64,000 nucleotides of DNA from Desulfuromonas acetoxidans DSM 684 (lineage in GTDB: Bacteria; Desulfobacterota; Desulfuromonadia; Desulfuromonadales; Desulfuromonadaceae), in assembly GCF_000167355.1 (NCBI RefSeq), contig NZ_AAEW02000016.1, positions 1 to 64,000 of the forward strand, given 5' to 3'. The position numbers and the translations under genes were made by a program. Below the pieces are notes generated by a model. It was given only the letters and a program-made list of their open reading frames with translations. It did not search any database and was not told the origin of the DNA. Positions 4,328-39,447 of this stretch are shown here, piece by piece (positions within the stretch are counted from its first letter, which is position 1; each line of letters opens with the position of its first letter).

Positions 4328-7300
4328 TTACTTTTCTTCGTCTTCCAACAGTTCCACATCGAGGCACAAGGACTGCAGCTCTTTGATCAGAACGTTAAAC
4401 GACTCCGGCAGCCCTGCTTCCAGGGTATGACGACCTTTAACAATCGCTTCATACATGCGTGTCCGGCCGGCGACATCGTCGGATTTGACCGTCAGGAATT
4501 CTTGCAGAGCGTGCGACGCACCATAGGCTTCCATGGCCCAAACCTCCATCTCACCCAAACGCTGTCCACCGAATTGGGCTTTACCGCCCAACGGTTGCTG
4601 GGTCACCAGACTGTAAGGACCGATACTCCGTGCATGGATTTTATCATCAACCAAGTGGTGCAATTTCAACATGTACATGATACCAACGGTGACTTTTTCT
4701 TTGAATGCTTCACCCGTCTTACCATTATACAGTGTCATTTGCCCCGACGGAGAGAATCCGGAACGGGTAATCTGTTCTTTAATCATGGACTCGCTGACAC
4801 CCTCAAAGACAGGTGTCGCCATAGGAATTCCCGGCGCCAGACGCTTAGCCAGTTTGTTGACATCCATTTCTGACAAGTCGTCAAGGAATGGATTCAATTC
4901 CTGATCATCATAAACATCCTTGATCTTCTCGCGCAGCTCATTGTGCGTGTGTTGGCGATCCAGAACTTCCTGGATCTGATTACCCAAACCACGCGCAGCC
5001 AGACCCAGATGGATCTCAAGAATCTGCCCGACATTCATACGAGAAGGAACACCCAACGGGTTCAGAACAATCTCAACCGGCGTACCGTCTTCCGAGTAGG
5101 GCATATCTTCGACAGGCAAAATCCGTGACAGAACACCTTTGTTACCGTGACGTCCGGCCATTTTATCACCCACCGACAACTTACGCTTGATGGCAATATA
5201 AATCTTAACCATCTTAATTACGCCAGGAGGCAGATCATCGCCGCGCTTAATCTTATCGATTTTGTCTGAAAAAACCCGCTTGATCAGCTCTTCGCGATCA
5301 GCCAGACCACGCATCAGCTCAGCGACACGATCCTCGATCGCTTCACCATCAACCAGAGAAATCTCCTGGAAACGCGCAACAGAAAGCGCTTCAAGCTGAT
5401 CAGCCTCAAGTACGCTGTTTTTCTTCAGCAGAACTTTACCGTCATCGTCCGTGACTGATGCCGCCAGCTTATTGCCGCAAAGAAGATCAGTCAGCTTGTG
5501 GCGGGCGGATTCACGAATAATACGAATTTCATCATTCTGGTCTTTGAGCAATTTATCAATTTCATGCTGCTCAATCTTTTCGGTACGGCTGTCTTTATCA
5601 GAGCCTTTGCGTGAGAACACACGAGCGCCGATAACAACCCCTTCCACGCCAGGTGGAACCCGAAGTGACGTGTCGCGAACATCGCCGGCTTTCTCGCCAA
5701 AGATGGCACGGAGCAACTTTTCTTCGGGAGACAACTGCGTTTCACCTTTAGGCGTGATCTTACCTACCAGAATATCGCCCGGCTTGACTTCAGCACCGAT
5801 GCGGATAATGCCACTCTCATCAAGATCCTTCAGTGCATCATCGCCAAGGTTTGGAATATCGTCAGTAATCTCTTCCTTGCCGAGCTTGGTATCGCGAGCA
5901 ACGCACTCAAACTCCTCAATGTGAATCGAGGTATAACGGTCTTCCTTAACCAGTTTCTCGGAAATCAGGATGGAGTCCTCAAAGTTGTAACCTTCCCAAG
6001 GCATAAAGGCGACCAGGACATTTTGCCCCAGACCCAATTCACCCCACTGCGTAGAAGGGCCATCCGCGATAATCGCACCGCGCTCAACATGGTCGCCAAC
6101 CTCAACAATCGGCTTCTGATTCAGGCAGGTATTCTGGTTGGAACGGATAAACTTGATCAGGTTGTAAATATCAACCCCGGTTCCCGTTTCATCGTCCTGT
6201 CCTTCATCAATGCGCACCACAATACGTGAGGCATCGACAGACTCAACCACACCGTCATGGCGGGCAACAACGGCAGCACCGGAGTCGTGGGCGACAATGC
6301 GCTCCATGCCGGTACCGACAAGAGGTGCATCAGCACGCAGCAGCGGAACAGCTTGACGCTGCATGTTCGATCCCATCAAGGCACGGTTGGCGTCATCATT
6401 CTCCAAGAAAGGAATCAGTGCTGCGGCAACTGACACCAGCTGCTTGGGAGAAACATCCATCAGCTGAATATCTTCGCGACGCAACATCATGAACTCGCCG
6501 CTTTGTCGTGCATTGATCACTTCATTGACAAAGCACCCATCATCATCCAGCTCAGCATTAGCCTGAGCAATCGCATGCCCCTCTTCCTCCAACGCGGAGA
6601 AATATTTAATCTCGCTGGTGACACGACCATCCTGAACCAAACGATACGGCGTCTCAACAAAGCCGTGCTCATTGATGCGGGCATAGGTTGACAGTGATGC
6701 AATCAAACCGATATTCGGCCCCTCAGGTGTTTCGATCGGACAGACACGGCCATAGTGAGTCGGGTGAACGTCACGTACCTCAAAACCGGCGCGCTCGCGA
6801 GTCAAACCGCCGGGTCCGAGAGCTGAAAGACGGCGTTTATGGGTGATTTCAGACAGCGGGTTGGTCTGATCCATAAACTGGGAAAGCTGTGACGAACCGA
6901 AGAACTCCTTAACCACAGCAGACACCGGCTTGGAATTGATCAGGTCGTGCGGCATCAAGCTGTCCACTTCCTGCAGACTCATGCGCTCCTTGATTGCACG
7001 CTCCATCCGTACCAAACCAACACGGTACTGATTCTCAAGCAATTCGCCAACAGCACGAACACGACGATTGCCCAAGTGGTCAATATCATCGACATGACCT
7101 TTACCATTGCGCAAATCGATCAGATAGCGGACGACTTCAAGGATATCTTCCTTGGTCAGAGTCCGGTGTTCAAGCGGCGTTTCCACACCAAGCTTATAGT
7201 TTAATTTCAAACGGCCGACAACGGACAGATCATAGCGTTCAGAATTGAAGAACAACCCTTCAAACAGCGCCGTCGCACTGCGAACCGTCGGCGGATCGCC

Positions 7301-8437
7301 AGGACGTAGACGACGATAGATTTCAATCATCGCATCTTCTGGATTGTTGACGGTATCCTGCAGCAGCGTATCACGCAGATACGGACCGACATACAGGTTA
7401 TCAATAAACAGGACGTCAACAGAGGTAATCCCTTTTTCACGCAGCAACTGAATACCGGTTTCGGTCAGTTCCTGATTACACTCAATGAGAACTTCACCGG
7501 TTTCAGTGTCGACCACATCAGTCGCAACAACCTTACCGAGAACCTCACTCTCATCAATCGCAATCGTCTCAAGACCGCTTTCAGAAATCTTACGAATTGC
7601 TGCTTTGGTGAATTTGCGATTGGCCTTAACCAGAACATCGCCATTCGGAGCGACAACATCAAGAACGGTACGTTGACCGGCGAGCAGATCAAGATTAACC
7701 GTCTTGGTGTAGCCCTCAGCATTAATCTGCAACGTCTCGGTGTCGTAATAATATTTTAAAAGCTCCTCAGCGCTGTAACCCAATGCTTGCAACAGCACGG
7801 TTGCCGGCAACTTACGCCGACGGTCAATGCGCACATAGAGGATATCTTTATGGTCAAAATCGAAATCGAGCCACGAACCACGATAAGGAATCACCCGAGC
7901 ATTATAAAGCAGCTTGCCACTCGAATGGGTTTTACCTTTGTCGTGATCGTAGAAAACACCGGGGGAGCGATGCAGCTGACTGACAATAACCCGCTCGGTG
8001 CCATTTATGATAAAGGTGCCGTTTTCAGTCATCAAAGGAATTTCACCGAAGTAAACTTCTTGTTCCTTGATATCGCGAATAGACTGCACACCGGTATCCT
8101 TGTCCACGTCCCATGAAACAAGACGAACACGGACTTTTACCGGAGCGGCAAAGGTCATACCACGCTGATGGCACTCTTCGACATCGTATTTAGGGACTTC
8201 CAGCACATAAGAGACATATTCCAATGAACATGTTTCACTGAAGTCGCGGATGGGAAAAACGGAGCGAAAAACCGCTTCAAGACCGATATTCTGACGGGCA
8301 GAAGCAGGCAGGTCCGCCTGAAGAAAGCGTTTATACGAGTTTTTCTGAATATCGATGAGATTGGGAATTTCGATAATTCGCTGAATTTCAGAAAAATGCT
8401 TGCGCAATAACTGGTTATTCGCGATCGAATAAGCCAT
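4328..8437 (-). CDS. rpoB: DNA-directed RNA polymerase subunit beta
   Basis: Beta subunit of RNA polymerase, 1369 residues from the chosen start. The rifampicin-pocket segment [18 protein letters not shown] and the following [13 protein letters not shown] are intact and show wild-type-like residues. The switch region [10 protein letters not shown] is present near the C-terminus. An open frame begins at a GTG (8443), but AAGGAG sits about six bases before the ATG at 8437, which gives the usual N-terminus MAYSIANN and is preferred. The gene lies between rplL and rpoC, with an rplL-rpoB hairpin upstream, which suggests expression tuned by partial attenuation or RNA processing. Confidence 0.98.
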
Positions 8438-8466
8438 GGCCACTCCTTAAGAAAAGAACGTAGAAC

Positions 8467-8494
8467 AGCCAAGGCCGCAAAGACGACCTTGGCT
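8467..8494 (-). promoter_or_regulatory. rplL-rpoB intergenic hairpin (attenuator or processing site)
   Basis: An 8-bp perfect stem, AGCCAAGG with CCTTGGCT, and a 12-base loop lie in the 82-base gap between rplL and rpoB. It is followed on the minus strand by a T-rich stretch (GTTCTACGTTCTTTTCTT) but not by a clean T-run. In E. coli this gap carries a partial terminator and an RNase III site; an equivalent role here is inferred from position. Confidence 0.5.
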
Positions 8495-8519
8495 TCGTGC
8501 AGAAATATCGAGGGATTTA

Positions 8520-8903
8520 CTACTTGAGCTCGACAGAAGCGCCAGCTTCTTCGAGTTGTTTCTTGATGTCTTCAGCTTCTTCCTTAGCAGCAGCTTCTTT
8601 AACAGTGCTGGGAGCGCCGTCAACCATCTCTTTGGCTTCTTTGAGGCCCAGACCGGTAACAGAACGAACAACTTTGATAACGTTGATTTTCTTGTCGCCA
8701 GCGCCAGTCAGAACAACGTCAAACTCAGTCTTCTCTTCAGCAGCAGCACCGGCATCGCCAGCAGGGCCGGCAGCAGCAACAGCAACAGGAGCTGCAGCAG
8801 AAACACCAAATTTGTCTTCCAGTTCTTTTACCAGTTCAGACAGTTCAAGAACAGACATGTTCTCGATAAATTCAATTACTTGCTCTTTTGTGATATCAGC
8901 CAT
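8520..8903 (-). CDS. rplL: 50S ribosomal protein L7/L12
   Basis: Stalk protein of the large subunit, 127 residues, which recruits translational GTPases. The N-terminal dimerisation helix region ([19 protein letters not shown]) is followed by an Ala/Gly-rich hinge (about residues 37-55). The C-terminal domain carries the conserved KTEFDVVLT and [15 protein letters not shown] segments. The length matches the family (about 120-130). It lies 57 bases after rplJ, its partner in the L10-L12 stalk complex, and shares the L10 leader upstream. Confidence 0.98.
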
Positions 8904-8960
8904 GATTTTTCTCCGTCAATATGATGAATGCTAAAGCACTTCGTTTACTAGTGATTATTG

Positions 8961-9479
8961 TTATGCAGCCTTCTGATCTCTGATGGCGCCAAGCACCTGA
9001 ACCAGAGAACGTGGCACTGCAGCCAGAACACCAACAAAGTTGGATACCGGCGCATTGATCGATCCAAGCATTTTGCCCAACAGAACCTCGCGGCTCGGCA
9101 GTTCAGCCAATGCTTTCACTTCGCCTTCACTAAGGATTTTACCTTCAAGAACTGCTGTTTTCAGCTCAAAGAACTTACTGTCTTTGGCATATTCAGCCAG
9201 AACTTTTGCCGGTGCAACCGGATCTTCCTGGGCGATTGCAATTGCAGTCGGACCTTGAAGATAGTCACCCAGACACTCAAAATCGGTTCCCTTAGCAGCC
9301 AGACGAAGCAGGGTATTTTTTACAACGCGATACTCAACACCAGCACCACGAAGCTTACCACGCAACTCGTTAACTTCGTCGACATTCAATCCACGATAAT
9401 CAGCAACAAACGCAGCTTTTGCCGTGGCCAGTTTGGCAGCGAACTCTTCAACAAGTTGTACTTTATTATCTGTAGCCAT
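8961..9479 (-). CDS. rplJ: 50S ribosomal protein L10
   Basis: Stalk base protein, 172 residues, which anchors L7/L12 dimers to 23S rRNA. The N-terminal ATDNKVQLVEEF and ADYRGLNVDEVNELR segments and the later GPTAIAI are characteristic. The C-terminal helix (VGVLAAVPRSLVQVLGAI) binds L7/L12. The ATG at 9479 is preceded by a strong AGGAGGAGAG. A 210-base gap upstream carries the L10 leader, the likely site of feedback by the L10-L12 complex. Confidence 0.98.
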   Translation of the reverse strand: MATDNKVQLVEEFAAKLATAKAAFVADYRGLNVDEVNELRGKLRGAGVEYRVVKNTLLRLAAKGTDFECLGDYLQGPTAIAIAQEDPVAPAKVLAEYAKDSKFFELKTAVLEGKILSEGEVKALAELPSREVLLGKMLGSINAPVSNFVGVLAAVPRSLVQVLGAIRDQKAA

Positions 9480-9489
9480 CCACTCTCCT

Positions 9490-9640
9490 CCTTTCCTAGA
9501 TTTCTAGAAGTAATACTCCCTGTTCAGTCGTTGAAAACCGAAGGAAGATCACGGAGTGGTCTTTTTCAGTCTCGGCAGGCGTTGTTGCACATTAAACCAC
9601 AGGGTACCTGCTGTCTTAGACAGGGAACTTACTAAACAAC
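9490..9640 (-). ncRNA. L10 leader RNA (ribosomal protein autoregulatory element)
   Basis: The 210-base gap before rplJ contains, on the minus strand, AGACAGCAGGTACC (near 9606-9619) and, about 35 bases later, CCTGCCGAGA (near 9570-9579). The pair can form a stem with kink-turn-like asymmetry. This matches the consensus I know for the bacterial L10 leader, where the L10-L12 complex binds to repress translation or promote termination. A G+C-rich hairpin precedes it (ends near 9660). The exact boundaries are approximate; a covariance-model search with Rfam RF00557 would settle them. Confidence 0.75.
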
Positions 9641-9689
9641 AGCGCCGGAGACACTCCGGCACTGCTGGTTATAGCGTTATTCAATTATG

Positions 9690-10391
9690 TTACTTCACCA
9701 GAGCCTGAATGCCCGGGACGTCAACCTGAATACCAGGCCCCATCGTACTTGAGAGACTGATTTTCTTCAGGTAGGTTCCCTTAGCCGTTGACGGCTTGGC
9801 TTTAACCAGAGCGTCCATCAGAGAAACAACATTGTCCTGAAGCTTGTCTGCATCAAAGGAGACCTTGCCAACCGGAGCATGGATAATACCGGCTTTTTCA
9901 ACACGGTATTCTACTTTACCCGATTTGGACTCGCCAACAGCGCGGCCAACATCAAAGGTAACTGTTCCAACTTTCGGGTTCGGCATCAGGCCACGGGGAC
10001 CAAGAAGGCGACCAATTTTACCGACAACACCCATCATATCAGGAGTTGCAATTGCGGTATCAAAGTCGAACCAACCGCCCTGGATTTTCTCAACAAGGTC
10101 ATCGCCGCCGACAAAGTCGGCACCGGCATCGAGAGCTTCCTGTGCTTTTTCACCTTTGGCGAACACCAGAACGCGGACCGACTTACCCAAACCATGGGGA
10201 AGTACGACGGCACCACGAACCATCTGATCGGCCTTACGCGGGTCAACCCCGAGACGTACGGTCAGATCAACGGTCTCATCAAATTTGGCAAAAGCGGCCC
10301 CTTTGACCAATTCAACGGCGTCACTCAATGAATAAGCAACAGCTCTGTCAACTTTTCCTTTTGCAGCGATACTGTTTTTACCTGTAGCCAT
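9690..10391 (-). CDS. rplA: 50S ribosomal protein L1
   Basis: Binds 23S rRNA at the L1 stalk and controls release of E-site tRNA, 233 residues, the usual length. Typical segments are [32 protein letters not shown] and GTVT. It lies 17 bases after rplK, forming the usual L11-L1 pair, in which L1 feedback-represses the dicistron in E. coli. Whether that occurs here was not tested. Confidence 0.98.
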
Positions 10392-23866: not shown

Positions 23867-25072
23867 TTACGATCGAACATGCCAGGCTTGGCCATACGAG
23901 GCCGTCGCCCGTGTTGTGATTGAAAACAGGACAACGGCCAGGCCTCCGCACAACCCGGCTACATAAAACACCGACGACAGACCCTCACTGCTCAGCAACA
24001 GCGCTCCGAGCACAGGGCCGACGACAAAGCCGAGATTGAGGCTGGCATTGAACATGCCGACAGCAAATCCGGTGCCAAATCGCTGTCCCTCTTCCACCAG
24101 AAGAGCCGTACTTGCCGGTTGCGAAAGTCCGCTGAACAGGCCGATAGCCATCCCCAGAACAAGAACCTGATGAAAGGTTGTTGCCAAGGGGATCAGAACA
24201 TAGAGCAGCGACACCACGGTACCGCCAACCATAACCAACACAGATCGAGAGCAGCGATCGGTCAGTTTTCCCATCGGCCGCAGACACAAGGTCATAACGA
24301 CCGATGTGGACGCCATGACCATCCCCACTTCAACACCGGTCAGCCCCAGTTTCGACATCAACAGGATCGGCATAAAGGAAACAAAGATGACAATGCCGCA
24401 GGCGCGGCCGAAAATAAACACCAACAATCCCGGCAGAGCACTGTGTTGAAGAGAGCGGCGAGAGCGGGCCTGACGATTTGCGGACACAGGCATGGTGGTC
24501 GTGCGTGCCGTATTGTCATCGGTGGGGATCAACAGCACAGCAACCAGCAATGCCGCGAGACACAGTCCGGCGAGCAACACAAAAATGCCATCAAAGCCCC
24601 ACTGGTCCATAATAATTCCGCCGATCAGCGGACCAAGGCTTAAGGCGCCGTAGAAGGACATGTCAAAGGTCGCGACCATTTTCCCGCGGCTATGCGGCAA
24701 TGTGGTTTCACCAACCAGTGACAGCACCACCGGACGGAACATCGCGCAACCAAGACCCTGCATCAGACGCAAAATAATCAGTGTTTGCACTCGGGTTATC
24801 GACAGGCACAGCAGCGAAACCAGCAGAAACACCATCAGACTGATCACAATCAGGCGTTTGCGGCCAAAACGGTCTGACAGTTTGCCCATAAACGGACTGA
24901 ACACAATCTTGGACGCGGCATAGAAGCCGATGGCGGCACCGAGAATCGCTCCGCGCGCACCAAGACTTTGGGCAAAGACCGAAAAAAATGCATCGGAAAC
25001 GCCCAAACCGAGGGTCACGGCAAAATTGATAAAGAAGACGCCCTTAAACAACCAACGATGTGCTTTATCCAT
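23867..25072 (-). CDS. Major facilitator superfamily transporter
   Basis: A 401-residue inner-membrane protein with about 12 predicted transmembrane segments in two six-helix halves. The loop 2-3 signature GKLSDRFGRKR (MFS motif A) is present, and a partial repeat, GKLTDRCSRS, occurs in the second half. It resembles drug or metabolite exporters; the substrate cannot be told. An AGGGG site precedes the ATG at 25072, which is preferred over 25093. It lies 52 bases after ribBA and may be co-transcribed with it, so flavin or metabolite export is a possibility only. Confidence 0.8.
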   Translation of the reverse strand: MDKAHRWLFKGVFFINFAVTLGLGVSDAFFSVFAQSLGARGAILGAAIGFYAASKIVFSPFMGKLSDRFGRKRLIVISLMVFLLVSLLCLSITRVQTLIILRLMQGLGCAMFRPVVLSLVGETTLPHSRGKMVATFDMSFYGALSLGPLIGGIIMDQWGFDGIFVLLAGLCLAALLVAVLLIPTDDNTARTTTMPVSANRQARSRRSLQHSALPGLLVFIFGRACGIVIFVSFMPILLMSKLGLTGVEVGMVMASTSVVMTLCLRPMGKLTDRCSRSVLVMVGGTVVSLLYVLIPLATTFHQVLVLGMAIGLFSGLSQPASTALLVEEGQRFGTGFAVGMFNASLNLGFVVGPVLGALLLSSEGLSSVFYVAGLCGGLAVVLFSITTRATASYGQAWHVRS

Positions 25073-25124: not shown

Positions 25125-26327
25125 CTAAAGACTCTCCAACAGGTGGCCCATTCTGGCCTGCTTGGTCTGCAGATAGTGAAGGTTGCTGTCCACCGGTTCA
25201 ATCGCCAGCGGGACCCGTTCAACATCTGCCATGCCATAGTGCTCCAGGGCATCAAGTTTGTCCGGATTGTTAGTCATCAGGCGAACATGCTGCACATCAA
25301 GATCTCTGAGCATGGCCGCACCAATACCATAATCGCGCGAATCGGCCGCAAAACCGAGTCGCAGATTGGCTTCGAGAGTGTCGTGGCCCTGATCCTGCAA
25401 TTCATAAGCACGCAGCTTATTGATCAAGCCAATACCACGCCCTTCCTGACGCAGATAAAGAATGATTCCTGAGCCTTCCTGGCTAATGGCCATCATGGCT
25501 TTGGACAACTGCAGACCGCAGTCACAGCGCAGGCTACCGAACACATCGCCAGTTAAGCATTCGGAATGAATTCGTACCAGGGTCGGCTGTTGTGGGTTGA
25601 CCTCCCCCTTAACCAGAGCCAGGTGTTCCAGGCCATCAATATCATTTTGATAACCGATCACCCGAAAGGTGCCGTAGGGGGTTGGCAACACGGTTTCCGC
25701 TGCCCGCCGCACCAGCGGTTCATGACGCAGGCGATAGGCGACCAGATCGGCGACGGTACAAATGCCGATATTGTGTTTGACGGCGAACTCACGGAGCTGA
25801 GGCATACGCGCCATGGTGCCATCGTCGTTCATGATTTCGCAGATCACTCCGGCAGGTTTCAGCCCGGCCAGGCGAGCCAGATCAACCGAGCCTTCGGTCT
25901 GCCCGGTGCGGACAAGCACTCCGCCATCTCGTGCTCGCAAAGGAAAAACATGCCCAGGCCGCGCCAGGTCACCTGCAACGCTCTCGTTATCAATGGCGGT
26001 TAAAATGGTCTGCGCCCGATCGGCGGCGGAGATGCCGGTGGAAACACCCTGCCGCGCTTCGATCGACACGGTAAACGCGGTACCAAAGGTGCAACTGTTT
26101 TCAACCGCCATCGGTGGCAACTCCAGGCGGTCACAGTCCTGCCCGGTCAGACTCAGGCAGATCAATCCACGGCCAAAGCGCGCCATAAAGTTGACAATGT
26201 CAGGAGTGACCTTTTCAGCGGCAACAACCAGATCACCTTCGTTTTCGCGATCTTCGTCATCAACCAGGATCACCATATTACCGGCGCTAATCTCATCAAT
26301 GGCTTGTTCTATCGAAAGTAAGGGCAT
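25125..26327 (-). CDS. ribBA: Bifunctional DHBP synthase / GTP cyclohydrolase II
   Basis: Riboflavin biosynthesis, 400 residues. The N-terminal half (about 1-200) is 3,4-dihydroxy-2-butanone-4-phosphate synthase with [12 protein letters not shown] and the [14 protein letters not shown] segment. The C-terminal half is GTP cyclohydrolase II with zinc cysteines in [14 protein letters not shown] and the [11 protein letters not shown] motif. Both halves look complete, so both entry reactions to riboflavin should be made. The other rib genes are not in the window. The upstream region folds into several hairpins but does not match the FMN riboswitch consensus. Confidence 0.97.
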
Positions 26328-26532: not shown

Positions 26533-27716
26533 CTATTTACCGCTGAAAGCAAACTTGTAGGTCAGATAAAAACGGACATCATTTAGATCCTCTTGACCAC
26601 TGTCTTTGTCGATCATGGCATAACGTGCCCGCACACTCAGGCCGTCCAACGCCCCTGAAAACGCGTACTGCAGGCTGAAATCGGTTTCGTTGATGGTACT
26701 GGCCGGTGCATCGTACAGCGAATGGAACACATAGCCCTTGAGACCGTTAATGCCGGCAGCGCCGAAGTCATAGGACAAGCGTGCCGCATAGGCATCTTCA
26801 TGGCCGCGATCACCAGACAGGGAATCGCCGGAATTGACCACCTGCTGGATGACGACTTTGCCGTAACCCCATTCATCACGAATCGAGTCATCACCGGTCT
26901 TGGCGTAAAACCCGGTCAGATCGAAACCGTAGGCACTGACCCCGGCATTAACACCATACTGATAGGTATCCAGCTCACCATCCAACTCATCTCCCTGGGA
27001 TTTCTGTGTGAAAAAGGTCGGTGCGGCATGAAGAACAAAATCATTAATTTTTTACTGAAATCGACTTTAAAAAAGGTCTGGCGGAAGCTGTCTTTCATGG
27101 TGAAGTACCAGGCTTGCGCCTTGGTATTGACGACTTCGAACGGCAGTTTATAGGCAGCGCCACCGATATAGACATCGTTCGTGAAGGAAATAAACTCGTC
27201 ATCCACCCAGCCCATATGGTCGGTCAGGTAAAATCCCATCAAGGTCAGATTATCAATCGACTTGTTAACCACCGACACACCACGGTAGGTTCTGTGAATC
27301 ATGCGAATCGGATGGATATTGAGAAACGGTGTATTGAGTTCCTGGGCACCGATTTTAACTGTGGTATTAAAGCGTTGGGCCTGAACATAATATTCTTGGA
27401 GACGGCTGACACTTTCATGAACAGGTGCCGTAATGCCGTAATAAAATCCTTTGTCATCGTAATCACCCACACCGTTAGTGGTGGCGAAAGCTGCGCCAAG
27501 GGTGATCCCGTTAAAGGCGTCGGTTTTGTAGTACAACGCGCCGCCAAGGGCAGAATCCTGTTTATCCTGGGTCCCATTTTTAAAGTCACGGGTGAAATTG
27601 AGCAAGCTGATCTCACCGCGGACGGATCCTTGAGAAAACATTTCCTTCAGATTATCTGCGGCGATGGCAGGTAGCGCCAGACAGACCATTACCAGTGCTA
27701 AAATTAAAGCTCTCAT
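26533..27716 (-). pseudogene. OprD-like outer-membrane porin, disrupted by a frameshift
   Basis: Two overlapping frames together encode one beta-barrel protein of about 394 residues. The 5' part has a signal peptide (MRALILALVMVCLALPAIAA) and the OprD-like opening SVRGEISLLNFTRDF. It runs into junk after FSKK. The 3' part resumes as NDFVLHAAPTFFTQK and ends LTYKFAFSGK. The break lies in a six-base A-run (27048-27053); one extra A would restore the frame. OprD-family porins admit small carboxylates or amino acids. The ATG at 27716 is preferred to the TTG at 27725. Either the gene is inactive, phase-variable, or this is a sequence error. It is last in the cytochrome-reductase operon. Confidence 0.75.
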
Positions 27717-27756
27717 CTCTTCCAAGTCCTTTGCTTTAGGCGAATTGAGGGGGAAC

Positions 27757-27833: not shown

Positions 27834-29381
27834 TTACTGTGCGGCACCGATATATTCGCTGGCGCTGTCGGCTGCTATCCGGCCGGAGTTGACGGCAAAA
27901 CCAGCGGTTCCACCACCCAGCAGCAGATCGTAGCTGTCGCCGTACATACCACCGGCATCGGTACCGACAACATAGAGACCGGGAACAGCCTCATCATGCT
28001 CATTAACAGCTTCGGTTTTCTCGTTGATGCGTACGCCACCAAGGGTACCGAGATGACGCGGGGTCAATTTCGTGGCATAGAAAGGAGGCGTTGCAACTGC
28101 GCGCAGGAACTTGCTGTCTTTCTTGAACTCGCCGTCTTCACGGGTTTGCGCCCAGCTGTTCATTTTGTCGACGCTGCTCTGCAGAACCGCAGGGTCCATG
28201 TCGAGCATTTTGGCCAGCTCTTTGATGCTGTTGGCTTTAAAGACATTGCCGCGGTCGCGCTTGAGCTCTTTGTAAAATGATTTTTCCCAGTTGGTCAGCT
28301 TGGTACCCTGAATAACCCACTCGCCCAGAGGCATCTCAATACCCTCTTCAACGGCTTTTTTACGGGTGGCATCATCGTAGATGGAGTATGCGGTACCACC
28401 GATACGCACCAGAGCGTTACCGGCATAGGGCCACAGTTGGACACTTGACTCGTCGGTGTAGCGCTCACCACGGGGATTGACCCAGAAATAAGGCTGAACA
28501 GCCAGGGCAATCATCTGGTCAGCAGGATGGAAACCCTTGAGACCGGGGCGGTACATCTGCATGACGTCAACACCCTCTTCCGCAGCACCGGCGTCCCACG
28601 CCATACGGATACCATCGCCGTCTTTGCCCATGTTGCCGACCGGGATCAGGTCAGGATAGGGAGAGTACTTATTCATCATCTCTTTGTTATTGGCAAAACC
28701 ACCGGTGGCGATGATGACCGCCTTGGCATTAATACGAATGTTCTCTCCATCTTTGTTTTCAGCAAAAGCGCCGACAACCTTACCGTCCTCCTTGATCAGG
28801 CCGGTACCGGGAGTCTGCAGCAGAATCTCACCGCCATGATCAAGGATGTACTTGTTGAAGACATTGATCATGCGCGCACAGTGGTAATCGTGGGGATTTT
28901 TATCCGGGTAATCCGGACCAGGAGCAATAACGTGCCAGGTCAGCGGGCCGCCGAAACCACCTACGCCGACATACTCAATCTTGACTCCGAGTTCGTCGAG
29001 CCAATCAATGGTTTCAGCAGATTTGTCGACAAAGCAGGATACCAGGGCACCATTGGCCTTGTAATGGCTGTATTCCATAATGGTATCAAAAGCGAAATCC
29101 TTCGAGACATCGATACCAATGCGCTTCTGAATCTTACTTTCAGCAGCAAACAGGCCTTCACAGAAGTTGCCGGTACCGCCAACTTTCGCCTGCTTTTCCA
29201 GCAAAATGACCTTGTTACCATTCTGAATAGCCTGAACACCAGCTGCCAGACCGGAGGTCCCGGCACCGATGATAACAACATCGGTATTCATCACCTGCTC
29301 AGCAAATGCCGGCAGTGAAAACGTTGTGGCAGCAACGACGACGGTAAAAACCGACAGACATCTTTTCAATACGTTCCTCAT
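27834..29381 (-). CDS. Exported FAD-dependent reductase, fumarate reductase/flavocytochrome c superfamily
   Basis: A 515-residue flavoprotein with a Sec signal peptide cut near AFA-EQ (about residue 27). The FAD-binding GAGTSG is at 39-44, the downstream IIATGGFANN is intact, and the C-terminal flavin motif is VPGLYVVGTDAGGMYG. It has no haem motif of its own; the tetrahaem protein encoded 68 bases upstream is the likely electron donor, a split version of flavocytochrome c. Aligned by eye to Shewanella Fcc3, the residues that bind fumarate (His504, Arg544) and the acid Arg402 are not conserved. The substrate is therefore probably not fumarate. GGAG seven bases before the ATG at 29381 sets the start. 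Confidence 0.88.
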   Translation of the reverse strand: MRNVLKRCLSVFTVVVAATTFSLPAFAEQVMNTDVVIIGAGTSGLAAGVQAIQNGNKVILLEKQAKVGGTGNFCEGLFAAESKIQKRIGIDVSKDFAFDTIMEYSHYKANGALVSCFVDKSAETIDWLDELGVKIEYVGVGGFGGPLTWHVIAPGPDYPDKNPHDYHCARMINVFNKYILDHGGEILLQTPGTGLIKEDGKVVGAFAENKDGENIRINAKAVIIATGGFANNKEMMNKYSPYPDLIPVGNMGKDGDGIRMAWDAGAAEEGVDVMQMYRPGLKGFHPADQMIALAVQPYFWVNPRGERYTDESSVQLWPYAGNALVRIGGTAYSIYDDATRKKAVEEGIEMPLGEWVIQGTKLTNWEKSFYKELKRDRGNVFKANSIKELAKMLDMDPAVLQSSVDKMNSWAQTREDGEFKKDSKFLRAVATPPFYATKLTPRHLGTLGGVRINEKTEAVNEHDEAVPGLYVVGTDAGGMYGDSYDLLLGGGTAGFAVNSGRIAADSASEYIGAAQ

Positions 29382-29449: not shown

Positions 29450-29806
29450 CTACTTCGGCTGCATGTCGAAGTTGTGGCAGTCCTCACAGATCAGCACTGA
29501 TTTCTGATGGGTTTTATGGCATTCCATGCACGGTACCGGTCCCATATGGGAATGATGCGGATTGGCAAACGTATCCGGATCGGTCGGGTCGGGCTCCCCT
29601 TCCGGCTTGGTCAGTTCCGCCAACTCCTCATAGGTTCCATGACAGGCCAGACAGTCCTTCATGCTCGGAGCTTTTTCCGGTTCGTCCTGGTGATGACAAT
29701 CTGCGCAGGAAAAATCAAAATCGGCATGTGCACCACCAACGTTCATCGCCTGGGCCGCCGAGGCCGCCATCAGAAACAGGGTTAAAAAAATCAGACAGTT
29801 CTTCAT
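29450..29806 (-). CDS. Periplasmic tetrahaem cytochrome c (flavocytochrome haem-domain type)
   Basis: A 118-residue protein with a signal peptide ending near AQA-MN (residue 20). Four CxxCH motifs lie at 34-38, 52-56, 93-97 and 107-111, and extra His residues (HH at 84-85, H87, H100) could be distal ligands. Size and spacing match the N-terminal haem domain of Shewanella flavocytochrome c3 and the small cytochromes paired with periplasmic flavin reductases. It is the first gene of the operon, 58 bases after a -24/-12 promoter, and should pass electrons from a membrane quinol oxidase (not in the window) to the adjacent flavoprotein. Confidence 0.93.
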   Translation of the reverse strand: MKNCLIFLTLFLMAASAAQAMNVGGAHADFDFSCADCHHQDEPEKAPSMKDCLACHGTYEELAELTKPEGEPDPTDPDTFANPHHSHMGPVPCMECHKTHQKSVLICEDCHNFDMQPK

Positions 29807-29863: not shown

Positions 29864-29879
29864 TGCACCAGCCATGCCA
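29864..29879 (-). promoter_or_regulatory. Sigma-54 (-24/-12) promoter of the cytochrome-reductase operon
   Basis: Minus-strand TGGCATGGCTGGTGCA has GG and GC separated by exactly 10 bases, as sigma-54 requires (consensus TGGCACGNNNNTTGCW). Transcription would begin near 29853, 47 bases before the cytochrome ATG. The divergent gene encodes a sigma-54 activator, which supports the call. Confidence 0.72.
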
Positions 29880-29976: not shown

Positions 29977-31593
29977 ATGCGCGCACAAGATCTTGATTTA
30001 CGTGAACTGCTGACCACCACATCGGAGAGCGGCGTCATCCAATTTATGGGGCAACGGGTGCTGATTTTTGACGCACTCGCCCTGGGATTGCTGAGGGAAG
30101 AGCTGATTGACACGTTGGGAATACACACCGCCCGCGGTATCTTGACGCGATTCGGTTATGCTCATGGTTGGCGAACTGCAGAGATGTTAAGACGGGATTA
30201 CCCTGAACTGTTCAAAGACGCTTACACTGGACCACACCTGCACTCTCTGTGCGGCCTGATGACACCGGGAACAACCATCCGCTCCGACGGCGAAGGGAAG
30301 GCTCCTCTGGTCGAAGGTACCTGGCACGATTCCTACGAAGCGGAACAGCATCAACTTCATTTCGGCACCGCTGATGAGCCGACTTGCTGGACCTTGACCG
30401 GGTTTGCCAGTGGCTATGTGTCAAACCGGACCGGCCGCGAGGTGTACTTTCTAGAGAAAGCCTGCTGCGGCATGGGCGATCCAGTGTGTAAGATTGAGGG
30501 GCGCTTCAAGGAGATGTGGGACGAATCCTATGCAAGCCAACTGTCGTATTACAATCAGAAATCTTTTGACACGGTGTTGTCGGAGTTAACCTCAAAACTC
30601 AAAAGCGTGGAAAAACAGCTCAAACATCGCCAACGACAACTGTCGTGCTTTGACATCGATGATGACCTGCCTTGTGTTTCCTGCCGCAGCCCGGCCATGC
30701 GTAAAACCGCTGAACTGGCCAAGCGCATTGCCGGTACCGATTCTTCCGTAGTCATCAGTGGAGAAACCGGGGTGGGGAAAGAACGGATCGCTCAATATAT
30801 TCACGATGAATCGCAGCGTGCCGTGCGCCCCTTTGTTGCCATCAACTGTGGTGCTTTGACCGAAACACTGCTGGAGAGTGAGCTGTTTGGCTACATCAAA
30901 GGGGCATTTACAGGTGCGGTAAAAGATACGGTAGGCTTGTTTGAAGCCGCCAACGGCGGGACACTTTTTCTTGATGAGATCGGTGAAATCTCGCCGAGTA
31001 TGCAGGTAAAAATTCTCCGAGTTCTCCAGGAGAGGGAGATCCGCCGCATTGGTGATAACAAAACCAGACCTGTCGATTTTCGGGTGGTTTCGGCAACCAA
31101 TCGTAATCTTTCAGAAGAGGTTGAAGCGGGCAGATTTCGTCAGGATCTTTACTACCGTCTGCGCGTGATCGAACTGCGCGTGCCCGCCATGAGGGAACGT
31201 CAGGACGACATCCTGCCTCTGGCGAGAATCTTTCTATCGGAAAGCGCCAAACGTTCCCAACGTGACATCACTGCATTCAGCCCGCAGGCCGCCAAACAAC
31301 TGCTCAGTTATCATTGGCCCGGCAATGTGCGTGAATTGCAGAATGTTGTCGAGTATGGGGTTGCCCTGGCCACCGGCAACCGGATTGAAGTCGAGGATTT
31401 GCCGGAAGAGTTGCGCACGACCATGCCGCAACCCACCATTTCAGGGAAAATTTCCAGTCTCGAAGAGGTGGAGAAAAACTATATCCTCTCCGCACTGAAA
31501 ACCATGGACGGCAATAAAACCAAGACCGCCGAAGCACTGAATATCGGCATCGCCACGCTTTATCGCAAATTGAACAGTTACGAAAAAGCATAA
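29977..31593 (+). CDS. Sigma-54 dependent activator, XylR/DmpR type (XylR_N-V4R-AAA-Fis)
   Basis: A 538-residue regulator. The N-terminal XylR_N and V4R sensor domain spans about 1-178. Cys137, Glu160, Cys163 and Cys171 have the same spacing as the zinc ligands of the phenol sensor MopR (155, 178, 181, 189), and Trp116 and a His pair (87/89) fall at or next to its phenol-binding Trp134 and His106. The AAA domain follows, with GETGVGKE at 262-269 and GAFTGA at 309-314 for sigma-54 contact. A Fis-type helix-turn-helix (NKTKTAEALNIGIATLYRKL) ends the protein. It is divergent from the reductase operon and most likely activates it in response to an aromatic compound. Confidence 0.92.
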   Translation: MRAQDLDLRELLTTTSESGVIQFMGQRVLIFDALALGLLREELIDTLGIHTARGILTRFGYAHGWRTAEMLRRDYPELFKDAYTGPHLHSLCGLMTPGTTIRSDGEGKAPLVEGTWHDSYEAEQHQLHFGTADEPTCWTLTGFASGYVSNRTGREVYFLEKACCGMGDPVCKIEGRFKEMWDESYASQLSYYNQKSFDTVLSELTSKLKSVEKQLKHRQRQLSCFDIDDDLPCVSCRSPAMRKTAELAKRIAGTDSSVVISGETGVGKERIAQYIHDESQRAVRPFVAINCGALTETLLESELFGYIKGAFTGAVKDTVGLFEAANGGTLFLDEIGEISPSMQVKILRVLQEREIRRIGDNKTRPVDFRVVSATNRNLSEEVEAGRFRQDLYYRLRVIELRVPAMRERQDDILPLARIFLSESAKRSQRDITAFSPQAAKQLLSYHWPGNVRELQNVVEYGVALATGNRIEVEDLPEELRTTMPQPTISGKISSLEEVEKNYILSALKTMDGNKTKTAEALNIGIATLYRKLNSYEKA

Positions 31594-36113: not shown

Positions 36114-37520
36114 ATGAAAAACCATGTCGCCCTGCTCAAGCAACTCCCGGCCATCGACCGCCTTCTGCAACACTCGGCGCTGGCGCACAGCACAGCCCCG
36201 CACTGTCTGATTGTCGAAGCCGCTCAAGAAACGGTTGATCACTGTCGCCGGTCTATTCTCGACGCCAAAGCGGAACAAACCGTTTGCGTCGATCTCGACA
36301 CCCTTGCCGGCCAGGCCGCAACCCGCTTGACCGAAAAATTGCGCGCTTCATTGTGTCGGGTGATCAATGCCACCGGCACCCTGCTGCACACCAACTTAGG
36401 TCGGGCACCTCTGAGTGATGAAGCATTGGACAATATCGACCAAGTGGCTCGCGGTTACTCTAATCTTGAGCTCAACCTGACCACGGGCAAGCGTGGCCAT
36501 CGCTACAGTCATATTGATGAGTTGCTGTGTCGTCTGACCGGCGCTGAAGCCGCCGCGGTTGTCAACAACAATGCCGGGGCAGTTCTGCTGTCATTGACCG
36601 CGTTGGCCAAAGGTAAGGAAGCCATCGTTTCGCGTGGCGAATTGGTGGAGATCGGCGGCGCATTCCGAGTTCCGGATGTAATGGAAGCCAGCGGGGTACA
36701 ATTATGCGAAATTGGCACCACCAACAAAACGCACCTCAAAGATTACCGTCAGGCTATTAACGAAAATACCGGCCTGTTGCTTAAAGTACATACCAGCAAT
36801 TACCGCATTGTCGGCTTCACCGAATCGGTCAGTGCCGCGCAAATGGTTGATCTCGGCAAAGAGCACAAAATTCCGGTCATGGAAGATCTTGGCAGCGGCA
36901 TGCTGTTTGATCTCAGCGAGTTTGGTCTGCCCCGTGAACCGACGGTGCGTGAAGCGGTGGATGCCGGTATCGACCTGCTCACCTTCAGTGGTGACAAACT
37001 GCTCGGCGGTCCGCAGGCCGGTCTGATTGTCGGTAAGAAATGGGCCATCGATAAGATCCGCAACCATCCGCTGGCCCGCGCTCTGCGCATCGACAAACTG
37101 ACCCTGGCCGCGTTGGAAACAACCCTGAGTCACTACCTGGATCGCCAGCAAGCCATCGACAAGGTTCCGGTGCTGCGCATGCTCAACATGAAAGCCGAAG
37201 ACCTCAAGCAACGCAGCGAAGGTTTTACCGCTCAACTGTCCAAACGTCTTGCCGACACCGCCCGCGTTGAACTGATCGAAGAGCCATCCTGTGTGGGCGG
37301 CGGCGCTCTGCCAACCACGGAACTGGCGGGCTGGGCTGTGGCCTTAACATTACCCGCCGCCTCAGTGGACCAATGCGCCACAACCTTACGTCAGGCTGAA
37401 ATTCCTGTTGTTGCCCGCATTCAAGAAGACCGGCTGATCATCAATCTGCGTACTGTGCTTCCCGCTCAGGAGACCCTGCTGCTTGACGCCTTAACCGCCG
37501 CCTGTGGCCCAAAGAACTGA
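36114..37520 (+). CDS. selA: L-seryl-tRNA(Sec) selenium transferase
   Basis: PLP enzyme that converts Ser-tRNA-Sec to Sec-tRNA-Sec with selenophosphate; 468 residues. The PLP lysine is Lys295 in DLLTFSGDKLLGGPQAG, the same number as in E. coli. The N-terminal tRNA-binding part and RVINATGTLLHTNLGRAPLS are intact. It heads selA-selB-selD. The stop lies 10 bases before the preferred start of selB. No clear Shine-Dalgarno is visible before the ATG. Confidence 0.97.
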   Translation: MKNHVALLKQLPAIDRLLQHSALAHSTAPHCLIVEAAQETVDHCRRSILDAKAEQTVCVDLDTLAGQAATRLTEKLRASLCRVINATGTLLHTNLGRAPLSDEALDNIDQVARGYSNLELNLTTGKRGHRYSHIDELLCRLTGAEAAAVVNNNAGAVLLSLTALAKGKEAIVSRGELVEIGGAFRVPDVMEASGVQLCEIGTTNKTHLKDYRQAINENTGLLLKVHTSNYRIVGFTESVSAAQMVDLGKEHKIPVMEDLGSGMLFDLSEFGLPREPTVREAVDAGIDLLTFSGDKLLGGPQAGLIVGKKWAIDKIRNHPLARALRIDKLTLAALETTLSHYLDRQQAIDKVPVLRMLNMKAEDLKQRSEGFTAQLSKRLADTARVELIEEPSCVGGGALPTTELAGWAVALTLPAASVDQCATTLRQAEIPVVARIQEDRLIINLRTVLPAQETLLLDALTAACGPKN

Positions 37521-37530
37521 CACCACGATT

Positions 37531-39447
37531 ATGGCATCTCAACGAAATATTATCATTGGCACCGCCGGTCACGTCGACCACGGTAAATCCGAGCTGATCA
37601 AAGCGTTGACCGGCGTTCAGACCGACCGCCTCAAAGAGGAACAGCAACGCGGCATCTCCATTGACCTCGGCTTTGCGGCGTTTGATCTGCCCAATGGCGA
37701 CCATGCCGGTGTCATTGACGTTCCCGGACACGAAAAATTTATCAACAACATGCTAGCCGGCATCGGCGGCATCGACCTGGTTCTACTGGTCATCGACTGC
37801 AACGAAGGGGTGATGCCGCAGACCCATGAGCATCTGCAGATCCTCAATTTGTTGCAGATTCCCCAGGGGATCATTGTCATGACCAAGGTTGATCTCGCTG
37901 ATGAAGAATGGATCGATATCGTCGAAGAGGAAGTACGTGAAGAAGTTGCCGGAACCTTCCTCGAAAAAGCGCCAATGTGTCGGGTGTCATCCATCACCAA
38001 ACAAGGAATTCCCCAATTGATCGACGCCGTGGTTGACGCGGTGAAGGATTTGCCGCAACGCGATTCCGACGGCCCCATGCGCCTCCCCATCGACCGGCAC
38101 TTCTCTGTGGCCGGTTTCGGCACCGTGGTCACCGGCACCCTGCTCACCGGTCAAGTCAGTGTTGGAGATACCGTCGAAGTATTGCCACCGGGTGAAAAGG
38201 TGCGCATCCGCGATGTCCAGGTCCATGGCAAAAAACAATTGACCGCCCAATGCGGCCAACGGGTTGCCCTGAATCTGGCAGGATTGGAACGGGACGTGCT
38301 CCAGCGTGGTTGCGTCATCAGCACGCCGGGCATCTTTGAGCAAACCAGTCGTATTGACGCTCGCCTTACCTTGCTCGACGACGCACCTCGCCCGATCAAA
38401 TTCCGCGACCCGGTCCATTTTCACCTCGGCACCGCCCGCGTAGTGGGCCTGGTCGCCCTGCTCGACCGCGACGAATTACAGCCGGGTGAATCCGCCCTGG
38501 TACAGATCCACCTCGACAAGCCGATGGTCGCTCATCGCCAGGATCGTTTCATCATCCGCTCTTATTCGCCGGTCACCACTATCGGCGGAGGGCTGGTGAT
38601 TGATCCGGGCCCAGAAAAACATAAGCGCTTTCGCCCCGAGGTGATGAAAGCGATTGAAGAGCTCGAATCTGGAGAAAGCTCCTTTTTGCTGCAAAAGCTC
38701 ACCGAGCTGCAATGCGCCCGAGTCAAAGACCTCGAACAGTTGTCCGGTATGGGTCGCGAACGGATCACTTCTCATCTTGAGCAACTGGCTCAGGAAGGCA
38801 AAGTTTACCTGCTGTCTGATCAATGGCTGCCAGCCTCACTGGTACGCGCCTTTGAAGGACAGCTTGTTGACCTGGTCACCCAGGGACATGACGATAAGCC
38901 TTTACTCCCCGGCACTCTGCACGCCACCCTCAAGTCACGTCTGCCCAAGCGCTTGTCACCCAAAGCGTTTGACGCGCTGTTGACACGCACACCGCTGCAA
39001 CGGGTGGGCGAGTGGGTACAGTCGGAAGGGTTCCAACCCAACCCGACGGACACACAACGCCAGGATCTCGAACGAATTGAAGAGGCCTACCGTGCTGCCG
39101 GCGTTCAGGCCAAAGGGCGCCGTGACATGCTCGACAGGCTCGGTTTCAGTGAGGAACAACTGGAAGATTACCTGGGCTATCTGTTTTTCAACGGTCGCCT
39201 GATCAAACTGACTGAGGACACCTTTTTCCACCACAGCAGCTATCGTTTAGCGGTAGAAAAACTGGTGGCTTATTTTGCCGACAATCAAAGCCTGACCCTG
39301 GGCGAATATCGCGATCTGCTGGGCAGTGCCCGCAAACCGGTTCAAGCATTGCTGGAACATTTTGACGATCTCAAATACACCATGCGTAAAGACGATGCAC
39401 GGCAAGCCTGGAAATTACCGAGCCAAGAACATCTGGCCTCTCTCTAG
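37531..39447 (+). CDS. selB: Selenocysteine-specific elongation factor SelB
   Basis: GTPase that brings Sec-tRNA-Sec to UGA codons next to a SECIS hairpin; 638 residues. GTAGHVDHGKS is at 10-20, DVPGHEKF is G3 and MTKVD is G4. Beta-barrel domains follow, then C-terminal winged helices (about 380-635) that bind SECIS. The family N-terminus aligns with MASQRNIIIG, so the ATG at 37531 is preferred to the GTG at 37504, which would overlap selA by 17 bases. Neither start has a strong ribosome site, so coupling to selA is likely. Confidence 0.96.
   Translation: MASQRNIIIGTAGHVDHGKSELIKALTGVQTDRLKEEQQRGISIDLGFAAFDLPNGDHAGVIDVPGHEKFINNMLAGIGGIDLVLLVIDCNEGVMPQTHEHLQILNLLQIPQGIIVMTKVDLADEEWIDIVEEEVREEVAGTFLEKAPMCRVSSITKQGIPQLIDAVVDAVKDLPQRDSDGPMRLPIDRHFSVAGFGTVVTGTLLTGQVSVGDTVEVLPPGEKVRIRDVQVHGKKQLTAQCGQRVALNLAGLERDVLQRGCVISTPGIFEQTSRIDARLTLLDDAPRPIKFRDPVHFHLGTARVVGLVALLDRDELQPGESALVQIHLDKPMVAHRQDRFIIRSYSPVTTIGGGLVIDPGPEKHKRFRPEVMKAIEELESGESSFLLQKLTELQCARVKDLEQLSGMGRERITSHLEQLAQEGKVYLLSDQWLPASLVRAFEGQLVDLVTQGHDDKPLLPGTLHATLKSRLPKRLSPKAFDALLTRTPLQRVGEWVQSEGFQPNPTDTQRQDLERIEEAYRAAGVQAKGRRDMLDRLGFSEEQLEDYLGYLFFNGRLIKLTEDTFFHHSSYRLAVEKLVAYFADNQSLTLGEYRDLLGSARKPVQALLEHFDDLKYTMRKDDARQAWKLPSQEHLASL

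Follow-up and report, generated by a model that had tools for sequence, protein, structure and literature searches.

A VprA-like FAD reductase lacking the fumarate-binding residues, encoded beside a cytochrome gene and a phenol-sensor-like regulator in Desulfuromonas acetoxidans

What substrate is served by a flavoprotein whose fumarate-binding residues are gone? This question is raised by a reductase gene of Desulfuromonas acetoxidans DSM 684, located in the 64,000-nucleotide stretch of contig NZ_AAEW02000016.1 that was analysed here (the window). According to the original prediction, made by eye against Fcc3 of Shewanella, the protein lacks the fumarate-binding and acid residues of flavocytochrome c while its FAD motifs are intact, and a Tyr/Asp-rich pocket suggests a different substrate, perhaps bulkier or less charged. 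The coordinates of the reductase, its key codons and the neighbouring features are collected in Table 1.

Table 1. Features of the reductase locus and their positions in the window
Feature	Position	Strand	Basis
MFS transporter	23867..25069	minus	
Extra ribBA (riboflavin synthesis)	25125..26327	minus	
OprD-type porin, interrupted by a single-base difference near 27053	26533..27725	minus	comparison with genome G035
VprA-like FAD reductase, 515 aa	27834..29381 including the stop codon (ORF 27837-29381)	minus	
Tyr484 codon, place of Fcc3 Arg544	27930..27932	minus	alignment
Leu444-Gly445 codons, place of Fcc3 His504-His505	28047..28052	minus	alignment
Gln315 codon, place of Fcc3 Arg402	28437..28439	minus	alignment
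Arg278 codon, possible anion anchor	28548..28550	minus	alignment
Trp149-His150 codons, clade signature	28932..28937	minus	alignment
Tetraheme cytochrome c (Cytochrom_c3_2), 118 aa, four CXXCH	29450..29806	minus	domain search
Site resembling a sigma-54 promoter (one mismatch), ahead of the cytochrome gene	29864..29879	minus	
XylR_N/V4R sigma-54 regulator, MopR-like phenol anchor and zinc ligands	29977..31593	plus	domain search, alignment

The window reductase was aligned with Fcc3, UrdA, its paralogues and its relatives; PDB 1d4d served as the Fcc3 reference sequence, and the Fcc3 numbering was anchored by the mutant chains 1jrz (Arg402Tyr) and 1kss (His505Ala) together with the chain coordinates. 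In this alignment, Arg402 is replaced by Gln315, His504 and His505 by Leu444 and Gly445, Arg544 by Tyr484, and His365 by Tyr277, while the proton-path residues Glu378 and Arg381 correspond to Ile291 and Ala294. The UrdA residues Arg411, His520 and Arg560, equivalent to Arg402, His504 and Arg544, are described as contacting the substrate carboxylate, with Arg411 as the suggested proton donor (PMC7921117). Judged from the alignment, both the carboxylate clamp and the proton donor of fumarate/urocanate reductases are absent from the window reductase, and the fumarate-reductase label was rejected for it because the clamp residues are missing. The FAD motif GAGTSG is intact at residues 39-44, as had been claimed, and FAD_binding_2 is present as a full domain (184 bits).

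The same replacement was found throughout the group to which the window reductase belongs. Of the 34 rows compared, all 14 canonical ones keep Arg402, His504 and Arg544, whereas the three residues are missing from all 20 rows of the window's clade (the window itself included). These counts do not represent independent events, since the rows share ancestry and some canonical ones are almost identical to each other. The loss of these residues is thus borne out, register included. The clade rows were gathered by similarity to the window reductase, and the canonical rows comprise the proteins that matched the flavocytochrome c model in eight selected genomes, the protein's own paralogues and two PDB chains; both sets were picked by score, independently of the residues counted. 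Alignment A1 covers 16 of the 20 clade rows, with L026, L031, L033 and L051 left out.

Tyr at the place of Arg544 (Tyr484) is present in all 20 clade rows and Tyr480 in 16, which supports the tyrosine half of the proposed Tyr/Asp-rich pocket; the aspartate half is weaker, with Asp482 in 15/20 and Asp485 in 10/20. The clade is further marked by His150 (19/20), Trp149 (17/20), Gln296 (18/20), Pro297 (19/20) and Asn322 (19/20), none of which is the rule among the canonical rows. Arg278, located beside the His365 position, is an Arg in only four of the 20 clade rows. These include the window and the relatives in genomes G335 and G265, and the three are also the clade members with a signal-like N-terminus; Arg278 might contact an anion or another negative group of the substrate.

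Among the NCBIfam models, vinyl phenol reductase VprA (NF053717) gave the top score for the window reductase, 363 bits against a curated cut-off of 600. Membership of the VprA equivalog was rejected on this score, 237 bits below the cut-off, and membership of flavocytochrome c (TIGR01813) was rejected at 207.2 bits (curated cut-off 285.45), VprA being ahead by ~150 bits. The corresponding VprA and flavocytochrome c scores are 340.7 and 218.9 bits for the G335 reductase, which is 68% identical to that of the window, and 396 and 244.8 bits for the G265 reductase (47% identical). As a control, L050, a Lactiplantibacillus plasmid protein with an adjoining LysR gene, reached 783.8 bits and is a true VprA by score.

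In a maximum-likelihood tree, the 20 VprA-like rows are separated from the 14 canonical rows with a support of 100/100, and L050 falls within the window's clade, Tyr at the Arg544 place included; L051 is on a long branch, and L050 is of unusual letter make-up. The window reductase, ~31% identical to VprA, therefore belongs to what we label the VprA-like clade, defined by grouping with VprA, by Tyr at the position of Arg544 and by the absence of the Arg/His clamp. The VprA of Lactiplantibacillus plantarum also shares the Trp-His motif with the window reductase; unlike the latter, L050 has no signal-like N-terminus, has a LysR neighbour, and has no multihaem gene in the stretch examined. The VprA substrates described in PMC10295242 are vinylphenol, vinylguaiacol and vinylcatechol, all without a carboxylate.

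The clade profile also matches ketosteroid dehydrogenases and cyclohexanone dehydrogenase chains. The catalytic set of ketosteroid dehydrogenases consists of Tyr119, Tyr318, Tyr487 and Gly491, and these enzymes bind the carbonyl through a Tyr in the part of the protein that corresponds to the Tyr484 region.

Structure prediction by AlphaFold gave poor models, with a mean pLDDT of 32.0 for the mature window reductase alone and a mean pLDDT of 46.6 (pTM 0.50) when it was combined with two relatives from L035. In a Foldseek search, the top-ranking matches of the second model were UrdA and Fcc3, but with an rmsd of ~18 A; on account of this poor fit, no active-site geometry is claimed.

At E 1e-60, a search of 136 genomes of the order found the window reductase in two, which belong to a single genus; across the phylum, 14 of the 395 genomes sampled carry it at E 1e-70. 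Ten chosen neighbours of relatives were scanned, and they included CoA ligases, an OYE-type protein, an aldehyde oxidoreductase, pyridine-nucleotide oxidoreductases and an HpaB-type protein; given this variety, no single substrate can be assigned to the clade as a whole, and its members may act on several. The scan of genome contigs for relatives returned a single locus, L035 (5975-8995), where two VprA-like genes lie side by side on a contig titled Candidatus Aminicenantes. Three records were returned by the plasmid search. A relative from a Loigolactobacillus plasmid (L051:3590-5440) carries ~150 additional residues ahead of the FAD motif. No relative of the reductase was found in the viral-contig scan. 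In addition, the genome of the window encodes a pair of canonical proteins that keep Arg402, His504 and Arg544 (L047; 483 and 472 bits). At that locus (5897-9781, contig C9 of the same genome, G000), the flavocytochrome-c-type reductases with the Arg/His clamp are arranged in tandem, together with a four-haem cytochrome gene.

The reductase gene lies in a cassette with the order tetraheme cytochrome c, 68 bp, reductase, 120 bp, porin, 205 bp, ribBA, 55 bp, MFS transporter, where the gaps depend on the start codons that we chose. The haems are encoded by a separate gene and are not fused to the flavin domain as they are in Fcc3; L087 and L088 have four CXXCH in one chain. The cytochrome gene likewise precedes the reductase in L036 and L037. 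Against the Cgr1 model, the window cytochrome reaches a weak score of 24.9 bits (cut-off 340). The porin is intact in genome G035 (397 aa), and its split in the window represents either a sequencing error or a real mutation. Three DHBP synthase loci are present in the genome, and the window ribBA is regarded as an extra copy because the single RibH adjoins a different one, on contig C7. Farther along the window, two adjacent ORFs at 36114-39447 resemble selA and selB by eye.

A similar cassette is present in G335, a genome from another family of the class, in the order cytochrome, reductase, 379-aa protein, FG-GAP protein, ribBA (identified by eye from the sequence) and MFS; the 379-aa protein has no Pfam or NCBIfam match and appears outer-membrane-like by eye. 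In G265, the MFS gene follows the reductase, and no multihaem gene was found in the 17 kb examined at this locus. The MFS gene was detected in two of 134 genomes of the order, which are the two carrying the reductase, and matches were obtained in 58 of 297 genomes of the phylum (1e-40). The three best of these belong to the window's genome, G335 (53%) and G265 (36%), the same three genomes whose reductase has the signal-like N-terminus among the 20 clade rows (judged by eye, and Sec-type in the window reductase).

Pairs of a flavin reductase and a multihaem cytochrome have been described before. Mrd and Mcc, the methacrylate redox system of Geobacter sulfurreducens AM-1, are encoded by separate genes in one operon (PMC4427408), as in the window, a likeness of architecture alone; however, Mrd has a Tat signal and precedes the cytochrome, whereas the window reductase appears Sec-type by eye and the cytochrome comes first. 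A GTP cyclohydrolase gene is located 505 nt downstream in the AM-1 system (PMC4427408). Cgr1 and Cgr2, the cardiac glycoside reductase system of Eggerthella lenta, likened here by description, also form a cytochrome and FAD reductase gene pair in which the fumarate residues are lost (PMC5953540), but Cgr2 is predicted to be Tat-exported and needs Fe-S clusters. Fcc3 and UrdA share the FAD_binding_2 superfamily and a cytochrome-linked setting with the window reductase, and differ from it in the clamp and proton-path residues and in the location of the haems, which lie on a separate gene in the window.

The divergent regulator contains XylR_N, V4R and sigma-54 domains, and the part that forms the sensor can be aligned with MopR, PoxR and CapR. 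All three regulators compared (window, G035 and G335) retain His106 and Trp134, which anchor the phenol in MopR, as well as its zinc-binding residues C155, E178, C181 and C189. At the F132 position, however, they carry Gly or Ser where the known sensors have Phe or Met, and the sensor pocket should therefore be roomier. By anchor and zinc site, at the level of residues, the regulator is of the MopR/DmpR phenol-sensor type. Roles for the His/Trp anchor and the zinc site are described for MopR-type sensors, as is a small V4R pocket for simple phenols; in Aromatoleum, enlarged distal faces of the modelled pockets are described as accommodating p-cresol and p-ethylphenol (PMC10715001). MopR, CapR and PoxR, as well as PcrS and EtpR of Aromatoleum, resemble the window regulator in XylR_N and V4R, the His/Trp anchor and the zinc ligands; apart from residue 132, MopR-type sensors differ in lying beside a phenol-degradation operon rather than a reductase cassette. 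The G265 regulator has neither XylR_N nor V4R, which weakens the phenol-sensor link for that member. As for the promoter, 19 sigma-54-like sites occur on both strands of the whole window, including the one ahead of the cytochrome gene, and by our arithmetic this frequency predicts ~0.025 sites for the gap of 170 bases on the strand concerned. An exact match is found in the same gap of G335, so the site is present in both genera.

The reading that we favour, with somewhat less than even confidence, is that this member of the VprA-like clade is an exported, cytochrome-fed, phenol-induced FAD enzyme reducing the C=C bond of a neutral phenolic alkene of plant origin. The porin would admit the phenol, and 4-vinylphenol, vinylguaiacol, vinylcatechol or a close relative, as candidate substrates, would be reduced in the periplasm. 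Electrons would pass from the dedicated tetraheme cytochrome c to FAD, and N5 of FADH2 would give a hydride to the C=C bond of the phenol, whose oxygen would be held by Tyr484 at the place of the carboxylate-binding Arg544; His150 or a similar residue, as a candidate acid, may help proton transfer. The V4R regulator would sense a phenol and, with sigma-54, turn the operon on. A protein translocated by Sec can take up FAD only once it has crossed the membrane, and ribBA and the MFS protein are therefore proposed to supply the periplasm with this cofactor; export of the substrate or product is an equally plausible role for the MFS protein.

The VprA score, the clade-wide swap of Arg544 for Tyr and the phenol-type regulator pocket favour a substrate less charged than fumarate, and to this extent the earlier suggestion of a different substrate is partly supported. 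This evidence supports the substrate class, within which the choice of an exact compound would be a guess. Against the favoured reading stand the low identity to VprA and the score far below its cut-off, the varied neighbours of the relatives, the G265 locus, Arg278, and the lack of a phenolic acid decarboxylase (PF05870) in this genome, so that vinylphenol would need an outside source. A phenol sensor, moreover, need not respond to the substrate of the enzyme itself.

Arg278 leads to one of the alternatives, a periplasmic reductase of hydroxycinnamates (p-coumarate, caffeate, ferulate), in which Tyr484 would grip the ring OH and Arg278 would bind the carboxylate from a place not used in Fcc3. 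In its favour, the reductases of the window, G335 and G265 all keep this Arg, adjacent to where Fcc3 has His365, and a phenol-type regulator would also suit the ring of a phenolic acid. We consider it unlikely: Arg402, His504 and Arg544 are lost, the small His/Trp-anchored V4R pocket is described for simple phenols (PMC10715001), and VprA, which acts on decarboxylated vinylphenols, is without Arg278, yet shares Tyr484 and the Trp-His motif. A low probability is likewise given to a reductase or dehydrogenase for some other neutral compound (an enone, cyclic ketone, steroid or lactone) that works more in the manner of ketosteroid dehydrogenase, cyclohexanone dehydrogenase or Cgr2, the sensor answering a co-occurring compound. 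The profile matches to the first two enzymes and the varied catabolic genes near clade relatives would fit this alternative, as would the reduction of a neutral lactone by Cgr2, whose fumarate residues are lost (PMC5953540), but VprA is the best named family by ~150 bits and the phenol anchor of the regulator is kept in 3/3.

An ordinary fumarate- or urocanate-type carboxylate reductase with its clamp rebuilt elsewhere is very improbable. The superfamily fold and the cytochrome-linked setting are the same, and the poor predicted structures, which give no contrary geometry, are compatible with it; however, the clamp residues occur in 0/20 clade rows against 14/14 canonical ones, the score is below the flavocytochrome c cut-off, and the genome already has two canonical proteins with the clamp.

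Returning to the favoured alkenyl-phenol reductase, a further step would be a dedicated anaerobic respiration of hydroxystyrenes (4-vinylphenols), periplasmic and phenol-sensor-controlled, in which a dedicated gene for flavin synthesis and an MFS exporter would provide the FAD needed to assemble the Sec-exported enzyme in the periplasm; we regard this step as doubtful. Cgr2 is described as giving no growth advantage with its substrates (PMC5953540), and a cytochrome partner therefore does not prove respiration. Among the best-ranked titles and abstract openings of a literature library with few subscription journals, none could be recognised as describing this cassette or the respiratory use of vinylphenol as an acceptor.

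Within a superfamily that is readily labelled fumarate reductase or flavocytochrome c, the present analysis separates a clade without the carboxylate clamp and with Tyr at the Arg544 place, and these two features together provide a simple sequence test for it. The linkage of reductase, ribBA and MFS is a candidate for how Sec-exported flavoproteins obtain FAD. If true, hydroxystyrene respiration would recast a food-fermentation reaction as a respiratory chain, and, if the substrate is vinylphenol, anaerobes living in sediments would be able to use styrenes from lignin as electron acceptors.
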